A stretch of 64,000 nucleotides of DNA from Marine Group III euryarchaeote CG-Bathy1 (GTDB taxonomy: Archaea; Thermoplasmatota; Poseidoniia; MGIII; CG-Epi1), in the NCBI GenBank assembly GCA_001875425.1, contig MIYU01000018.1, positions 1 through 64,000 of the forward strand, written 5' to 3'. A program made the translations under genes and the position numbers. The notes under the pieces are model-generated. The model was not told the DNA's origin. It searched no databases and worked only from the letters and a program-made list of their open reading frames with translations. Each line of letters opens with the position of its first letter. Position 1 is the stretch's first letter. Shown in pieces: positions 32,126 to 40,924 of the stretch.

Positions 32126-32608
32126 TCAATTTGAGTGTTGTCTTCTAAAATGAGAAACGAGACCCAAAATACTCAAAATACTCAAAAAAGGGAGAGTGGG
32201 AATTGTAGTAGAAGAATTATCTACAGGTTCGGAAGACCCGGCTCCGACTATAATTTTTCCTCTCATTGAATCCATAGAATAATGAGGTTCGCAGATGTAA
32301 AACAAAGTAATATCTGAAGTAGTATGTTCTTCTGGTAAGGTCCAATTATAGGTTCCTGAAATTGGTTCACCAGAGTAGAAGCCACCTTCTAAACGACCCT
32401 CATCTTCTTCGTTTTCTATTTGAGCTACATTGTGAGTATCTGTTGAATTCCATTGAAAGATTATAGTATCTCCTATAGAAATTTCTATATCAGTAGAACC
32501 GTCAGGAGTCTCAAAAGCATAATCTACTACGTAAATTGTGTGGACTTCGGCAGCAAATGAAGGAAGTAAAAAAATCATAACTAACATAGAAAGAAGGGTA
32601 AAACGCAA
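32126..32608 (-). CDS. Secreted, C-terminally anchored cupredoxin
   Basis: Signal peptide; TDTHNV...LFYICEPHYSMDSMRGKIIVG (His-Cys-His-Met ligand pattern); C-terminal hydrophobic helix plus RRQ. TTG start inferred; ORF track extends to 32689. Confidence 0.82.
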   Translation of the reverse strand: MRFTLLSMLVMIFLLPSFAAEVHTIYVVDYAFETPDGSTDIEISIGDTIIFQWNSTDTHNVAQIENEEDEGRLEGGFYSGEPISGTYNWTLPEEHTTSDITLFYICEPHYSMDSMRGKIIVGAGSSEPVDNSSTTIPTLPFLSILSILGLVSHFRRQHSN

Positions 32609-32678
32609 AATGAAACCTCGATATTTTATGAGGAAATGATGTCTATATATGTATTCTTCTACATTGCATATTATGAAA

Positions 32679-33701
32679 GTGCTTGGCAAAGACGTTCATG
32701 CACATCACATACCTTTCATTGTAGCTATGATGGTACTTCTAATCGTAGTCACAGGAGGGTGGGTCAGAATAAGTGATGCTGGTGAAAGTTGCCCCGATTG
32801 GCCTACCTGTTTTGGTGAGCTCGGTTTTAATATTTCCAGTGAAAAACAAATGGAATGGTGGGGTGAAAATCCAGATGAGGCAGATTCTAGGCACGAAAAT
32901 GATCCTACATTTACATACACTACGTATCAAATATTTACAGAATGGTTACATCGATTTTTAGTGGGGATTATAGGAATTATTTTACTATATAGTCAAATCT
33001 TAGTATGGAATAAAAGAGAAGAGATAGGAGATAGACCTTACAAGATACATATGGTGGCGATGCTATTGTTAATATCACAAGCAATTATTGGAATGATAAC
33101 TGTTAGATATGATAATGTTCCTTGGAGTGTGTCGATACATTTAGCTGCTGCTATGTTGTTTATTACAACTTTGTTGTGGTCTGGTATTGTATGGATGAAA
33201 TGTGAAAAGGCGTTACCGAATAATTTTAAGGTAGAAACAAAAGAGACAGTAGGGAAATTGCTTCTAATGATGACAGTAGTCGCTTTGATTATGGGGATGG
33301 TTGGTGGATACATATCCTCTGGAAAATATGCAGATGATTGTAGTACAGGAATAGTGAATGGATGGCCCCTATGTAATGGAGAGATAATACCTGCTCATGA
33401 AAATTTTGGTGCTAATGTTACATTTCTACACAGAATATTGGCTTTAATGACAGGAGGATTGCTATTCTGGGGGGGACAATGGATGAGAGAAAATGATGGG
33501 AAAAATATTCTGACGACGTATGTTGATATAGCTTTAGGATTATTTGTTATGAATATAATAGTTGGAGCGTTGCATTTAGTAATGATGGATGAAAATGGAT
33601 TTCCAGGTTGGTTATCACTGATGCACCTTATACTGGCAACATTGATGTTTATTGCTTTAGCTTTTGCAACAGTAATAGCGCACGAGGCACTGAAAGAATG
33701 A
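32679..33701 (+). CDS. ctaA: Heme A synthase, COX15/CtaA family
   Basis: VTGGWVRISDAGESCPDWPTCFG, TEWLHRFLVGIIGI, VTFLHRILALMTGG; eight predicted TMs. Confidence 0.9.
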   Translation: MLGKDVHAHHIPFIVAMMVLLIVVTGGWVRISDAGESCPDWPTCFGELGFNISSEKQMEWWGENPDEADSRHENDPTFTYTTYQIFTEWLHRFLVGIIGIILLYSQILVWNKREEIGDRPYKIHMVAMLLLISQAIIGMITVRYDNVPWSVSIHLAAAMLFITTLLWSGIVWMKCEKALPNNFKVETKETVGKLLLMMTVVALIMGMVGGYISSGKYADDCSTGIVNGWPLCNGEIIPAHENFGANVTFLHRILALMTGGLLFWGGQWMRENDGKNILTTYVDIALGLFVMNIIVGALHLVMMDENGFPGWLSLMHLILATLMFIALAFATVIAHEALKE

Positions 33702-34609
33702 ATCAAGAGAATGAGATGCCGTCACTATTACTAGTGTATTGGAGACTACTGAAACCTAGAGTTGTTATGCTGCTACAGATAACTGCTGTTTGTGGAGTTG
33801 TGATATATAATTTAATGAATGAAACTGTAACTGACAAAGATGACATTATTAGAATACTTAATCAAAGTTTAGTAGTTCTCATTGGCGGAACTTTAACGGG
33901 AGGAGGTGCAGGTACAATCAATATGTGGTATGAAAGAGATATTGATAATGAGATGGATAGAACAGATAAAAGACCGATACCGATGGGGCACATATCTCCC
34001 GAGCACGCTTTGATGTTCGGTATTTCTTGCGTCTTATTGGGAGCGTTGATACTTTGGAATTACGGATCTTTAGAAGCCAGTATTGTTGCAGTGTTGAGTG
34101 CGATTTTTTATGTTTTGATTTATACAGTATGGTTAAAACCTAGAACTGCGCAGAACATAGTGATAGGGGGTGCTGCCGGCTCAACGCCTCCGTTGATAGG
34201 GTGGGCTGTAGCTGGAGGAAATATAACTGAAACCATCCCGTGGTTGATGTTTGTTATTATTTTTCTTTGGACTCCGCCGCATTTTTGGGCGTTGTCTTTG
34301 CTTAAAGTTGAAGAATATCGAAAAGTTGGTTTACCGATGCTGCCTGTAGTAAAGGGGAAAAAATACACTAGAAATAGTATAGTGGCGTACGCAGCTATTT
34401 TGTTACTATCTAGTTTAGTTTTAGGATATCAGGGGGGATTGGGGCGGATGTATATGGTTGTAGCTACCGTCCTTGGTGGATATTTTTTGTACCTAAGTGA
34501 GATATTGAGAACGGCACCAACCACTGAAAATACTATGCGTGTATTTCGTTATTCGATAAATTACCTAGCTTTGATTTTTTCTACGATTGTTATTGATATA
34601 TACATCTAA
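33698..34609 (+). CDS. ctaB: Protoheme IX farnesyltransferase
   Basis: YWRLLKPRVVMLLQIT, NMWYERDIDNEMDRTDKRPIPMGHISPEHAL, FLWTPPHFWALSLLKVEEYRKVGLPMLPVVKG; ATGA overlap with ctaA. Confidence 0.96.
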   Translation: MNQENEMPSLLLVYWRLLKPRVVMLLQITAVCGVVIYNLMNETVTDKDDIIRILNQSLVVLIGGTLTGGGAGTINMWYERDIDNEMDRTDKRPIPMGHISPEHALMFGISCVLLGALILWNYGSLEASIVAVLSAIFYVLIYTVWLKPRTAQNIVIGGAAGSTPPLIGWAVAGGNITETIPWLMFVIIFLWTPPHFWALSLLKVEEYRKVGLPMLPVVKGKKYTRNSIVAYAAILLLSSLVLGYQGGLGRMYMVVATVLGGYFLYLSEILRTAPTTENTMRVFRYSINYLALIFSTIVIDIYI

Positions 34610-34622
34610 AAGAGACTCCAAT

Positions 34623-34634
34623 ATTATTTTATAT
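34623..34634 (+). promoter_or_regulatory. Putative TATA box of cox operon
   Basis: ttattttatata upstream of coxB ATG at 34698. Confidence 0.35.
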
Positions 34635-34697
34635 ACCAATGTTGATTTTGCTTTAACTGCGCTACAGTGTGTAGTTTTCTTGGAGAAGAACAAACCT

Positions 34698-35336
34698 ATG
34701 TCCGTTCTAAAAGATTCATTGATACCGTACATCCCTCAGGGATGGCAAACTGACTTGTTTGAACCTGTTGTAACTCAATTCCTAATATGGTCGGCAATAG
34801 TTGGAGTATTGGTGCTTGGATGGATGTTTTATGCATTTTTCAGATATACGGATGATGGAGAAATACCAGAAGACGCCCCTCAAGCGGGAGTTTTTCCTGC
34901 AGAAAGAGGAAGTAATCGAGTAGAGCTTATTTGGACTGTAGGGCCATTGATATTGGTTACTTGGTTAACTTATATCTCATTAGCCCCTCTAGATTATTAT
35001 TGGGACATTCCAGATGATGATGACACAATAGTTGTACAAGTTACTGCTCAGCAATGGTTTTGGACTTTTACTTATGAAGATGGAACTTCAACGATAAATG
35101 AATTATATGTTCCAGCAAATACGGAAGTTGTTTTAGAGTTTAAAGCCTTAGATGTAATACATAGTTTTTACATTATAGAATTAGGGGTTAAGGAAGATAT
35201 ACCGCCTAATGTAGACACTGAAGCTTGGTTTGATAGTGGGTTACTTGAACCTGGAAATTATCTTATTCAATGTACAGAATATTGTGGTGAAGATCATTCC
35301 AATATGCTGGCCACTCTGATAGTTGCGGAGGAATAA
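34698..35336 (+). CDS. coxB: Cytochrome c oxidase subunit II with CuA site
   Basis: QQWFWTFTYEDG, DVIHSFYIIELGVKEDIPPNV, CTEYCGEDHSNM CuA ligands. Confidence 0.96.
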   Translation: MSVLKDSLIPYIPQGWQTDLFEPVVTQFLIWSAIVGVLVLGWMFYAFFRYTDDGEIPEDAPQAGVFPAERGSNRVELIWTVGPLILVTWLTYISLAPLDYYWDIPDDDDTIVVQVTAQQWFWTFTYEDGTSTINELYVPANTEVVLEFKALDVIHSFYIIELGVKEDIPPNVDTEAWFDSGLLEPGNYLIQCTEYCGEDHSNMLATLIVAEE

Positions 35337-35340
35337 ACAT

Positions 35341-37581
35341 ATGCAACGAATGAGTGGGAAAATATTTGGCGTTTTGTTTGTTGCGATAATTGCAGTAATT
35401 GCAATGATATCAATTCCTAGTGGCGATTCTCTACCTGGTGGCGTTGATACAAACACAGCAGCAGCAGGATGTTCATGTCATGGTGTTGATCCGACCGCAG
35501 GAGTGATGGTGACAATTGCTTCTCCTGAAAATTTTACAGCTGGTGAATCATATAACATTACAATTTCTATATCTGGCGGACCGAATGATGAGATTACAGA
35601 AGGAATGAATGCAACGGGTGGTTTTAGTTTAAGAGTAAATAGTGGAACACTGGAGAGCAGTGGTAATGATACACAACTATGGGATGATGGTACAGTATCT
35701 CATACAGAAAGTGGTAACGATCAACGAGAGTGGACGGTAGGATGGATAGCTTCTGATGATGATTCTAAAACTGTAACGTTTACTGCTTATGGAAATTCTG
35801 TTAATGGAGATTCGGGAAATGGATTAGGCAATTCTGGAGATTATTGGAATTCTGCATCTAAACAAGTTCCTGGAATAAATGTAATTATTGATGATGGAAA
35901 AATTACATTCGCACAAAAAATAATCTATGCCGTATTACTGTTTGGAGTAACTATTGGTGCAGTTGGTTTTGGATATCGTATTGTGAATACTGAAAAATCT
36001 GTTGAAGAAGTATTTGGAAAATATTGGGATTATACAATGGAATGGATTGTAACTACGGATCACAAAAAGATTGGAATTTTATATTTTGTAACTGGATTTT
36101 TCTTCTTGATAATGGGAGGAATTTTAGCTTTAGCAATGAGAGTCCAATTAATGTATGCAGATAATGACTTTATGACCAATCAAGAATACAATTCTGCATT
36201 CACTATGCATGGAACAACTATGGTATTTCTTTCTGCAATGCCTATGATAGCGGCTTTTGCGAATTATTTAATTCCATTGCAAATTGGAGCGAGAGATTTA
36301 GCATTTCCGAGATTGAATGCTTTGAGTTATTGGTTGCTTCCTGCTGGTGGGATAACGATCTACGCAGGATATTTAGCAGGCGGTGCAGGAGATGTTGGTT
36401 GGACAGGATATGCACCTTATTCTTCTGGAGATGCAGCAACTGCCCCCGGTACTGATCTATGGGTATCTGGTCAGATACTGCTTGGAGCCTCTTCGACTAT
36501 AACTGGAATAAATTTCATGACCACCATTCTACTGATGAGAGCACCTGGCGTCACTTTAATGAGAATGCCGCTGTTTACATGGTCTATAGCCGTTTCAGTC
36601 TTCCTTATGTTATTGGCAATGCCAGTATTCACCGTAGCTCTAATATTATTATTTGCAGACCGAACCTTTGGAACTTTGTACTTTGATGTGGCAGCGGGTG
36701 GAGACCCTATATTATGGCAACATCTTTTCTGGTATTTTGGACATCCAGAAGTTTACATACTTGTGATGCCTGCGTTCGGAATTATATCAGAAGTGGTTGC
36801 TACTTTCTCAAAGAGACCCGTCTACGGATATAATGCAATGGTAATAGCGATTGCTTCCATAGGTATAATTTCATTCATAGTATGGGGACATCATATGTTT
36901 ACATCAGGAGGCGATCCACTATTCCGATTCATTGTAATGTTAACCACCATGTTAGTTGCCATACCGACTGGTGTGAAAATATTCAATTGGTTGGCCACGA
37001 TAACTAGAGGAAAAATAAGTAGGAAAACAGCAATGTTATTCTCACTAGGTGCAATTGCTACATTTACAATAGGGGGGATTACTGGAATTATCTTAGCATC
37101 CATTCCATTAGACTTAGCCCTGCATGATACTTATTTCGTAGTAGCGCACTTTCACTACGTAATTATTGGAGGAATATTGTTTGGATTTTACTCTGGAGTG
37201 TATTATTGGTATCCGAAAGTTACAGGTAGAATGATGAATGAAAAACTGGGTGTTGCGCATTTCGTAACTTCTATGATTTTCTTTAACCTTGCATTTTATC
37301 CAATGCACAATATAGGTTTGATGGGTATGCCTAGAAGATATGCCACATACAGTGAAAGTTTAGGAATAGAAGAATTAAATTATTACGTAAGTATATTTGC
37401 GATTCTATTTGGTTTGAGTCAACTTTTCATAGTAGCTAACATAATTTATTCTTACAAAAAAGGAGAAAAGGCTGGAGATAATCCATGGAATGGTTGGAGT
37501 TTAGAATGGGTAACTTCTTCACCGCCACCTCACAATAGTTTCACAGAAATCCCTACTTTGGAGGTTAAAGAAGATGAGTGA
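35341..37581 (+). CDS. coxA: Cytochrome c oxidase subunit I fused to N-terminal extracytoplasmic CSCH domain
   Basis: COX1 core from EWIVTTDHKKIGILYFVTGFFF; WQHLFWYFGHPEVYILVMPAFG, WGHHMFTSG, HDTYFVVAHFHYVIIGG. Preceded by signal anchor, AAAGCSCHGVDPTAGV domain and an additional TM. Confidence 0.95.
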   Translation: MQRMSGKIFGVLFVAIIAVIAMISIPSGDSLPGGVDTNTAAAGCSCHGVDPTAGVMVTIASPENFTAGESYNITISISGGPNDEITEGMNATGGFSLRVNSGTLESSGNDTQLWDDGTVSHTESGNDQREWTVGWIASDDDSKTVTFTAYGNSVNGDSGNGLGNSGDYWNSASKQVPGINVIIDDGKITFAQKIIYAVLLFGVTIGAVGFGYRIVNTEKSVEEVFGKYWDYTMEWIVTTDHKKIGILYFVTGFFFLIMGGILALAMRVQLMYADNDFMTNQEYNSAFTMHGTTMVFLSAMPMIAAFANYLIPLQIGARDLAFPRLNALSYWLLPAGGITIYAGYLAGGAGDVGWTGYAPYSSGDAATAPGTDLWVSGQILLGASSTITGINFMTTILLMRAPGVTLMRMPLFTWSIAVSVFLMLLAMPVFTVALILLFADRTFGTLYFDVAAGGDPILWQHLFWYFGHPEVYILVMPAFGIISEVVATFSKRPVYGYNAMVIAIASIGIISFIVWGHHMFTSGGDPLFRFIVMLTTMLVAIPTGVKIFNWLATITRGKISRKTAMLFSLGAIATFTIGGITGIILASIPLDLALHDTYFVVAHFHYVIIGGILFGFYSGVYYWYPKVTGRMMNEKLGVAHFVTSMIFFNLAFYPMHNIGLMGMPRRYATYSESLGIEELNYYVSIFAILFGLSQLFIVANIIYSYKKGEKAGDNPWNGWSLEWVTSSPPPHNSFTEIPTLEVKEDE

Positions 37582-38383
37582 AGAACATATCCACACATCG
37601 GCCCCATTTGTTGCTAGTATGGGGAGTATGTTCATATTGATAGGATTGGCTTTAGCAACGAACGGATATCCTGCATTTTGGTTTGTTTGTTTAGCCGGTA
37701 TTGCAATATTGATAGCTGGATTTATTTCGTGGCTATCTGAATATTCGCCACAATATGAAGAGGTTGACATTGAGAGATATCATTCATATTGGGATACAAT
37801 CCCTATACGAAAATTTGGTACGTGGTTGTTCCTGCTTAGTGAAATGATGGTTTTTGGTACCTTATTGAGTACCTATCTTAGATATCGTGCAGCTGCAGGA
37901 GAAGATTGGGCACCGGCTGCTGAACTGATAAGAGAGCACCTAATATTTGGTGTGCTTAACACGTTCGCTCTACTATTGAGTAGTTTGACTGTGGTTCTAG
38001 CACTATATGCTGCAAAAAGAGGAGATACGAAACGAACGACACGTTATTTGATTTGTACTCTTATTTTAGGCACTCTTTTCATAGTTCTAAAACTGTATGA
38101 ATGGTTTGAAATGATGCATCATGACTTTTCACATATAGATCCAAAATATGAACATGGATTCTGGGTAGACACGAGTATGGAAGGGTCTACTTTCTACTTG
38201 ACTACTGGAACGCATGGAGCGCACGTATTTGTTGGTCTAATTGCATTGTGTTACTTAATATATAAATCGAATAAAGGAGGATACACGGAAGAATATCATG
38301 ACACCCTGGAGTACTTCGGTCTCTATTGGCACTATGTCGATATAGTGTGGGTGTTCGTATTTCCATTCTTCTATCTATATTGA
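37574..38383 (+). CDS. coxC: Cytochrome c oxidase subunit III
   Basis: KFGTWLFLLSEMMVFGTLLSTYLRYR, FYLTTGTHGAHVFVGLIAL, YFGLYWHYVDIVWVFVFPFFYLY. Confidence 0.95.
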   Translation: MSEEHIHTSAPFVASMGSMFILIGLALATNGYPAFWFVCLAGIAILIAGFISWLSEYSPQYEEVDIERYHSYWDTIPIRKFGTWLFLLSEMMVFGTLLSTYLRYRAAAGEDWAPAAELIREHLIFGVLNTFALLLSSLTVVLALYAAKRGDTKRTTRYLICTLILGTLFIVLKLYEWFEMMHHDFSHIDPKYEHGFWVDTSMEGSTFYLTTGTHGAHVFVGLIALCYLIYKSNKGGYTEEYHDTLEYFGLYWHYVDIVWVFVFPFFYLY

Positions 38384-39225: not shown

Positions 39226-39843
39226 CTATTCTTGAAGTATGATTTCGATATCGTGAATAAGATAAGCTGGAGACCAATCAACACCTGTAAAGAGTGATCT
39301 TTTTCTTAAATCTTTGTCTAAAATAAAGACAGAGGGGTTGTGTAAAACGCTGTAATTTTCATCAGAATTGGTATTGTTATTCGATTCAGAATTTTGAGGT
39401 ACGACCCAAATGCCAAAATCATCCCAGACGGGTTTCAAAGATGCCCAAGTGCCTGTAAGATGGGTCCAAGTGATATTATTCTGTGAAGTGAAATTAGTGA
39501 GTACTTCTGGTGTATCTCTGAATGGGTCGACAGAAATAGAAATGAGAGAGATGTTAGATTCTAAATCAGGAGTTAACGACATGCTCAGATTTTTGAGTAA
39601 CTGAGTTGTTGGAAGGCAAGTATCACTACAATGAGTGAAAATAAATGATATGATCACAACATTGCCTTGGAAAGAGGTGAGATTAAATGATTCATTATGT
39701 TGATTAGTTAATTGAAAATTTGGAGTTGGGGCTGGTGGGCTTAGCTCGGTACCCCAAAACCCGGAATTTTGACTCTCATCTAAGCAGCCAGACAATATGA
39801 CTAATGATGTGATTAAAAAAATAGATAAATGAGACGTCTGCAC
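39226..39843 (-). CDS. SCO1/SenC family copper chaperone lipoprotein
   Basis: Lipobox-like LVILSGC; FIFTHCSDTCLPTTQLLKNL, SISVDPFRDTPEVL. Confidence 0.93.
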   Translation of the reverse strand: MQTSHLSIFLITSLVILSGCLDESQNSGFWGTELSPPAPTPNFQLTNQHNESFNLTSFQGNVVIISFIFTHCSDTCLPTTQLLKNLSMSLTPDLESNISLISISVDPFRDTPEVLTNFTSQNNITWTHLTGTWASLKPVWDDFGIWVVPQNSESNNNTNSDENYSVLHNPSVFILDKDLRKRSLFTGVDWSPAYLIHDIEIILQE

Positions 39844-39937
39844 AAATAGTGAAATCGGTACTGGTAAAAATGAATTTGCTAATTTGAGCCGAGCGCTATG
39901 CTTTTGTGTTCTTTCTACAATAGGGGATTGGTATAGA

Positions 39938-40924
39938 ATGCACGAAGAGTTCGCTGATGTTGGAGAAGGTGTAAGTGAAGATACTAATGAAGCTAATTCG
40001 GCAGTCAGAATAGAAGGTGGTAATGTTTTTGTAGAATTGGATCCAGATCACCCTGGTTTCAAAGATAAAGAGTATCGTGAACGAAGAAATGAAATTGCTA
40101 AAATTGCAATTGAATGGAATGAAATGTCTATGCAGGAAAGAAGAACTAAGAAAATTCCTGAGGCCCCGTATAGTGATGCCGAACATGACGTTTGGAAAGC
40201 GATTATGGAACGGATGGAGCCTGCCCAAGAAAAATATGCGTGTAAAGAATATTTAGAATATGCACGTAAACTTAAGCTACCGAAGGATAGGATACCTCAA
40301 CTTCAAGAAGTTAGTGAAAAGTTAGAAGACATTACTGGTTTTAGACAAGAACCGGTAGGGGGGCTAGTCCACCCTAAAACATTTCATACTGCATTAGCAA
40401 ATAAAGTCTTTTTGTCTACTCAATACATAAGACATTCATCAAATCCATTCTACACGCCAGAGCCCGATGTTGTACATGAATTGGTAGGGCATACTGCAAT
40501 GCTAGCTGTGGAAAAATGGGCCGAATTAAATATGCTATTTGGAGAAGCAGACATGCGAACTGAGAGTGAAGAAGCAATTAAGAGATTAGGGACAGTTTAC
40601 TGGTTTACAATGGAATTTGGAGTATGTAAAGAAGGAAACGATGTCAAAGCAGTTGGACCTGGATTATTATCTTCTTATGGTGAAATGGAGCATGCATGTA
40701 CAGGTGGTGCGTTTTGTGGTAAAGAAAGTGCTTGTGTGTGTGAACCGAACTTAGAATATCGAAAATATAATTTTGAGGAAATGGAAACCAGACCATATGA
40801 TGTTACAAAATATCAGCCAGTATTGTATTTGGCAGATTCATTTGAACGGATGTATGAAGATATTTCAGAATTTGTTACTATATGGGGAACGGATGAAGAT
40901 CCTAGAAAAGAATTGCATCAATAA
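39938..40924 (+). CDS. Phenylalanine 4-hydroxylase (aromatic amino acid hydroxylase)
   Basis: FYTPEPDVVHELVGHTAMLA iron-binding motif, YWFTMEFGVCKEGNDVKAVGPGLLSSYGEMEHAC. Confidence 0.93.
   Translation: MHEEFADVGEGVSEDTNEANSAVRIEGGNVFVELDPDHPGFKDKEYRERRNEIAKIAIEWNEMSMQERRTKKIPEAPYSDAEHDVWKAIMERMEPAQEKYACKEYLEYARKLKLPKDRIPQLQEVSEKLEDITGFRQEPVGGLVHPKTFHTALANKVFLSTQYIRHSSNPFYTPEPDVVHELVGHTAMLAVEKWAELNMLFGEADMRTESEEAIKRLGTVYWFTMEFGVCKEGNDVKAVGPGLLSSYGEMEHACTGGAFCGKESACVCEPNLEYRKYNFEEMETRPYDVTKYQPVLYLADSFERMYEDISEFVTIWGTDEDPRKELHQ

Follow-up and report, generated by a model that had tools for sequence, protein, structure and literature searches.

A Reeler-like CxCH domain fused to cytochrome oxidase subunit I in marine archaea: a candidate heme c carrier

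What is the role of an additional domain that precedes, in one continuous reading frame, the complete core of cytochrome oxidase subunit I (COX1)? The question is raised by a gene in the window, a term used here for the whole stretch of 64,000 nucleotides that was analysed from a contig of Marine Group III euryarchaeote CG-Bathy1 (assembly GCA_001875425.1, contig MIYU01000018.1). The original prediction, made from the DNA letters, described about 230 extra residues ahead of COX1, with a CSCH motif and a beta-rich domain on the same side of the membrane as CuA, and proposed that the domain might mediate electron entry, docking or metal delivery. The features on which the following argument depends are listed by position in the window.

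32126-32689, minus strand: secreted cupredoxin (PF00127, E 9e-6), with a possible role as soluble donor
34587-35336, plus strand: COX2, with CuA ligands H192, C229, C233, H237 and M240 read from the sequence
35327-35331, plus strand: GGAGG, a ribosome-binding-like site read from the sequence, located shortly ahead of the COX2 stop and of the ATG at 35341
35341-37581, plus strand: fused choice-of-anchor V domain-COX1 gene, 746 aa, a frame without a stop
35362-35424, plus strand: N-terminal signal or anchor helix, about residues 8-28 (hydropathy; predicted helix 5-22)
35449-35862, plus strand: choice-of-anchor V domain (NF041895), residues 37-174 (profile match; Reeler-like predicted fold)
35470-35481, plus strand: CSCH, residues 44-47, proposed heme c attachment site and proximal His (from invariance)
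35701-35703, plus strand: His121, proposed distal heme ligand (invariant in relatives and paralogs)
35908-35985, plus strand: second predicted helix in the extension (residues 190-215, approximate)
36067-37401, plus strand: COX1 core, residues 243-687 (PF00115 and TIGR02891 above cut-off)
37574-38383, plus strand: COX3 (PF00510)

Reading frame, predicted topology and fold of the extension

Translation of 35341-37581 yields a 746-aa product in which an anchor helix, CSCH, the beta domain, a further helix and a full COX1 follow one another. Residues 1-234 form the extension ahead of the conserved WIVTTDHK, where COX1 starts, and the originally described N-terminal addition is therefore present in a single frame. 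The core is complete, with Pfam COX1 (PF00115) extending over residues 243-687 at an E of 2e-153 and TIGR02891 (cytochrome c oxidase subunit I) scoring 685.8 bits against a cut-off of 670.75. The COX2 stop codon (35334-35336) lies between the GGAGG and the ATG of the fused gene, and the GGAGG agrees with the ribosome-binding site claimed for this start.

The N-terminal hydrophobic segment of the fused protein is preceded by positive charge. This pattern of helices and charge places the extension domain on the outer side of the membrane and the N-terminus of COX1 on the inner side, an extracytoplasmic placement that is a prediction throughout. The expected position of the domain on the CuA side of the membrane agrees with this predicted topology and with conservation across the family.

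Over residues 37-174 the extension matches the NCBIfam choice-of-anchor V model NF041895 at 89.9 bits, compared with a cut-off of 42. No function or cofactor is assigned to NF041895 in the searchable sources, and no paper naming the NF041895 domain was found in the literature searched. The Pfam Reeler profile (PF02014) remains below its gathering cut-off (16.4 against 21 bits), with a good match at the level of fold. The best PDB structure matches to an AlphaFold2 model of the extension (mean pLDDT 81, pTM 0.63; residues 24-36 and 42-45, around CSCH, at low confidence) are the Reeler domains of F-spondin (3coo, 2zot and 2zou; probability 1.0, E about 1e-5, target TM-score 0.52-0.59). The model of the full-length fused protein is modest (pLDDT 71.7) and was left out of domain placement. 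The extension is thus a choice-of-anchor V (Reeler-like) domain, which the predicted topology locates on the outer face.

The predicted fold resembles the F-spondin Reeler domain, and the profile score falls below cut-off. The profile alignment to Spondin-1 does not extend to CxCH and has no His opposite H121, and both features therefore look family-specific rather than general to Reeler domains. A search of PDB sequences returned Spondin-1 near threshold, a weak match to cytochrome c-553 and nothing else; the cytochrome c-553 match was put down to the Cys-His motif.

Distribution of the domain and of the fusion

The domain is present in 57 of the 58 genomes of the relatives set and, in a wider sample, in 88 of 88 genomes of the class. 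Within the relatives set, 53 same-class genomes bear COX1; in 49 of them its frame measures 718 aa or more, and the domain matches on the N-terminal side in those genomes fall in frames of the same length. Named contigs with the fusion belong to Marine Group II (Candidatus Poseidoniales, Thalassarchaeaceae). In named MAGs and in the single-cell genomes AG-404-A19 and AG-319-P11, the fusion, read from ORF length together with the COX2 and COX3 neighbours, is present mostly in the order COX2-[domain-COX1]-COX3; it also occurs in G080, from another Thermoplasmatota family. Judged from sequence comparison, the domain-COX1 fusion is old, with nearly every Marine Group II (Poseidoniales) COX1 carrying it.

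Recurrence of the architecture, which the original prediction proposed to look for in other genomes, also settles whether two genes were joined by an assembly or binning artefact. The window derives from a draft MAG that is 79% complete with 5% contamination; nevertheless, the same fusion in 49 of 53 COX1-bearing relatives, in single-cell genomes and in another family rules out an assembly join, leaving the artefact scarcely credible and the earlier impression of a genuine frame confirmed.

A domain gene separated from COX1 by a stop, named beforehand as an observation that would speak against the fusion, exists solely in a paralogous oxidase operon, where the domain comes after COX1, and the fusion itself stands. 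In G002 and G014 this operon consists of an unfused COX1 and then a separate domain gene, and in other genomes it contains a fused COX1 together with a separate copy of the domain. Because a separate gene follows COX1, the paralogous operon shows, at the level of gene order, that the domain can be a subunit of its own, which does not undo the fusion.

A second fused COX1 is present in the genome of the window (G000, contig C4; L106, 1-1779, minus strand) and is cut by the contig end. In a tree built with several untrimmed rows, it groups with G014 and not with the window copy. Because of this grouping and the 5% contamination assigned to the assembly, it may be a contaminant and not this organism's. 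No relatives were found in viral and plasmid collections, and control genomes, including Haloferax volcanii, gave no NF041895 match.

Invariant Cys and His, maturation genes and operon context

The CSCH motif lies within AAAGCSCHGVDP (residues 40-51 of the fused protein). C44, C46, H47 and H121 are the only Cys and His of the domain and all are invariant among 43 relatives, with H121 also invariant in an alignment of 15 diverse paralogs. Across 74 copies of the domain the motif is CxCH, and the rare CxxCH and CX4CH forms occur in giant surface proteins. Residues 44-47 differ from the CxxCH required of canonical c-type cytochromes, and CXCH as a heme pattern appeared in the literature searched in one software recipe only. 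The original description of CSCH as resembling a heme c site without being a canonical one is literally true. The heme c reading nonetheless becomes more, not less, likely, because Ccm genes are kept and no CxxCH cytochrome was found in the archaea searched.

CcmC/CcmF is present in 57 of 58 relatives and 88 of 88 class genomes, and CcmE in 44 of the 58. The maturation system in the genome of the window itself comprises CcmC and CcmF, together with a CcmE-like protein that scores slightly below cut-off and contains CPSKY, the CxxxY of System I*. In archaeal CcmE a Cys takes the place of His, with CxxxY marking System I* (PMC3601427). Class I cytochrome c (PF13442) was detected in none of the 58 relatives and in 7 of 14 control genomes; the genome of the window has no match either. 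Codon scans for the CxxCH spacing covered two genomes, this one (79% complete) and G002 (97% complete). The former gave 46 matches compared with 47 in a reversed control, with glutaredoxin-like and Spt4-like genes as the only plausible in-frame cases. G002 gave 85 matches and no secreted candidate; its believable in-frame cases, judged by eye from sequence and not by family search, look like ferredoxins, a glutaredoxin, QueC, GcvT, an alcohol dehydrogenase and zinc-ribbon proteins. For CxCH, the remaining credible in-frame cases in the genome of the window are copies of the domain and the Rieske protein.

Outside the class, the best 11 domain-bearing genomes all harbor Ccm, compared with 40 of 208 in the background (p about 4e-9, kinship ignored), and among COX1-bearing genomes the proportions are 6 of 6 versus 5 of 17 (p 0.005, kinship ignored). 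Weak domain matches occur in genomes without Ccm, and the co-occurrence could instead mirror shared lifestyle or ancestry.

The COX2 of the window retains CuA, with its ligands in CTEYCGEDHSNM plus H192. In a profile search it matched COX2 and cupredoxin-type models and no cytochrome c model, and it lacks the fused class I cytochrome c that defines subunit II of caa3 oxidases. The secreted cupredoxin is a possible soluble electron carrier; its gene adjoins COX15/COX10-like genes. By eye, a Sco/SenC-like secreted protein with CxxxC is encoded near the oxidase genes (39226-39843, minus strand). The ORF at 39884-40924 (plus strand; VHELVGHTAML) looks, again by eye, like an aromatic amino acid hydroxylase, which is unexpected in an archaeon.

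A separate domain gene of 228 aa with CYCH heads a Rieske/cytochrome b operon in the genome of the window, in the order domain gene, small protein, Rieske-type protein, cytochrome b and cytochrome b C-terminal/ferredoxin protein. Four relatives have the domain gene, small protein and Rieske-type protein in the same order. Operons with a choice-of-anchor V head lie at L105 2623-6507 and L044 1450-3480, and the small protein of L044 resembles the DUF7318 family, with a score just below cut-off. By gene order, the operon copy of the domain sits where cytochrome c1 would be expected. Marine Group II is described as having cytochrome b and Rieske proteins and lacking a canonical bc1 (PMC6336850).

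Heme c, rival readings and known systems

With slightly better than even confidence, the extension is regarded as a membrane-tethered electron-transfer domain in subunit I of a CuA oxidase, probably carrying heme c. This reading draws on the four invariant residues being the only Cys and His of the domain, on the presence of Ccm where PF13442 and secreted CxxCH proteins were not found, on the tracking of Ccm by the domain outside the class, on the occurrence of domain copies both in the oxidase and as first gene of the Rieske/cytochrome b operon, and on the CuA kept by COX2. Among the roles proposed originally, electron entry fits the topology, the intact CuA ligands and the conservation, whereas nothing was found that supports metal delivery. 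The Ccm machinery would attach heme c to CxCH via one or both Cys, and H47 (proximal) and H121 (distal) would ligate the heme iron. Electrons would reach the domain from the Rieske/cytochrome b complex, with the neighbouring cupredoxin as a possible intermediate, and pass on to the CuA of COX2, with the copy in the Rieske/cytochrome b operon replacing cytochrome c1/f. In function, the whole would resemble a caa3 oxidase whose 'c' is carried by subunit I. The domain may be the missing cytochrome c of Marine Group II archaea; whether a Reeler-fold heme c domain (CxCH plus distal His), matured by archaeal System I* and serving there as oxidase donor and c1/f equivalent, constitutes a new class of c-type cytochromes is an evenly balanced call.

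Doubt about heme c arises because CxCH is no established heme c motif and E. coli Ccm misfires with altered Cys spacing (PMC3601427), and because copies occur on giant surface proteins with no evident part in electron transfer. Residues 42-45 are modelled at low confidence, and the proximity of H121 to CxCH is presumed. A further reservation is the reach of the CxxCH scan, which took in two genomes, one of them 79% complete. A real though minor possibility is that C44, C46, H47 and H121 bind Cu or Zn, with the ion serving either to carry electrons or to support the structure. Two Cys and two invariant His often act together as metal ligands, and the operon already handles copper, in the CuA of COX2 and the cupredoxin next door; however, an adjacent C-H pair with the first Cys at a spacing of 1, 2 or 4 is odd for a metal site and fits CXnCH variation, and such a site leaves a universal Ccm without a detected CxxCH cytochrome unexplained. 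The retention of Ccm is equally unaccounted for if the domain serves in docking, to the cupredoxin or the Rieske complex, or in structure, with a CxC disulfide and no cofactor. This is unlikely, although the same domain is found on surface proteins and its animal Reeler relatives are, to our knowledge, cofactor-free binding domains: docking does not call for a pair of invariant His next to the sole two Cys, and a CxC disulfide is strained. A thiol-redox or copper-insertion helper for CuA/CuB assembly would be consistent with the resemblance of CxC plus His to thiol-active sites and with fusion to a copper-needing subunit, but is very improbable given that a Sco-like gene, recognized by eye from its sequence, is already in the same cluster (39226-39843) and that another copy of the domain is in the Rieske/cytochrome b operon, for which a copper site is not known.

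With caa3 and qNOR, examples of heme-copper oxidases with an additional outer domain are known already. In caa3 oxidases, subunit II is fused to a CxxCH-bearing class I cytochrome c. The window system resembles them as a CuA oxidase with an extra outer-side domain proposed to feed CuA, and differs in that a Reeler-like CxCH domain is placed on subunit I. In qNOR, a member of the heme-copper superfamily, an N-terminal outer domain derived from the NorC cytochrome, with the heme lost, is fused to the catalytic subunit; the fold of the window domain is unrelated. Cytochromes f and c1 are membrane-tethered c-type cytochromes that partner Rieske and cytochrome b proteins and carry CxxCH. Cytochrome f is also a beta-sandwich, whereas the window domain has CxCH and another fold, and its structure match to cytochrome f (6rqf_C) is weak (target TM 0.32, rank 37). 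Compared with NF041895 elsewhere, the choice-of-anchor V domain is here fused to COX1, and an outer domain with CxCH on subunit I was not described in the literature searched.

For the haloarchaeal bc complex, whose heme c subunit is unidentified, non-standard heme c patterns missed by motif searches have been proposed, in haloarchaea without Ccm (PMC4429474). In contrast, Ccm and NF041895 occur together in the archaea described here, and Haloferax volcanii has no NF041895 match. If the heme c reading is true, the domain would provide one concrete case of such archaeal patterns (PMC4429474), which standard CxxCH searches would overlook, and c-type cytochromes would gain a new fold and the CxCH motif. 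It would also supply the missing cytochrome of Marine Group II, which outnumber all other planktonic archaea in the surface ocean (PMC6461757).

The same domain also begins giant surface proteins (L040, L046, L054, L056 and L109), some of which have CxxCH or CX4CH, with RCC1-like or Ig-like regions behind the domain.
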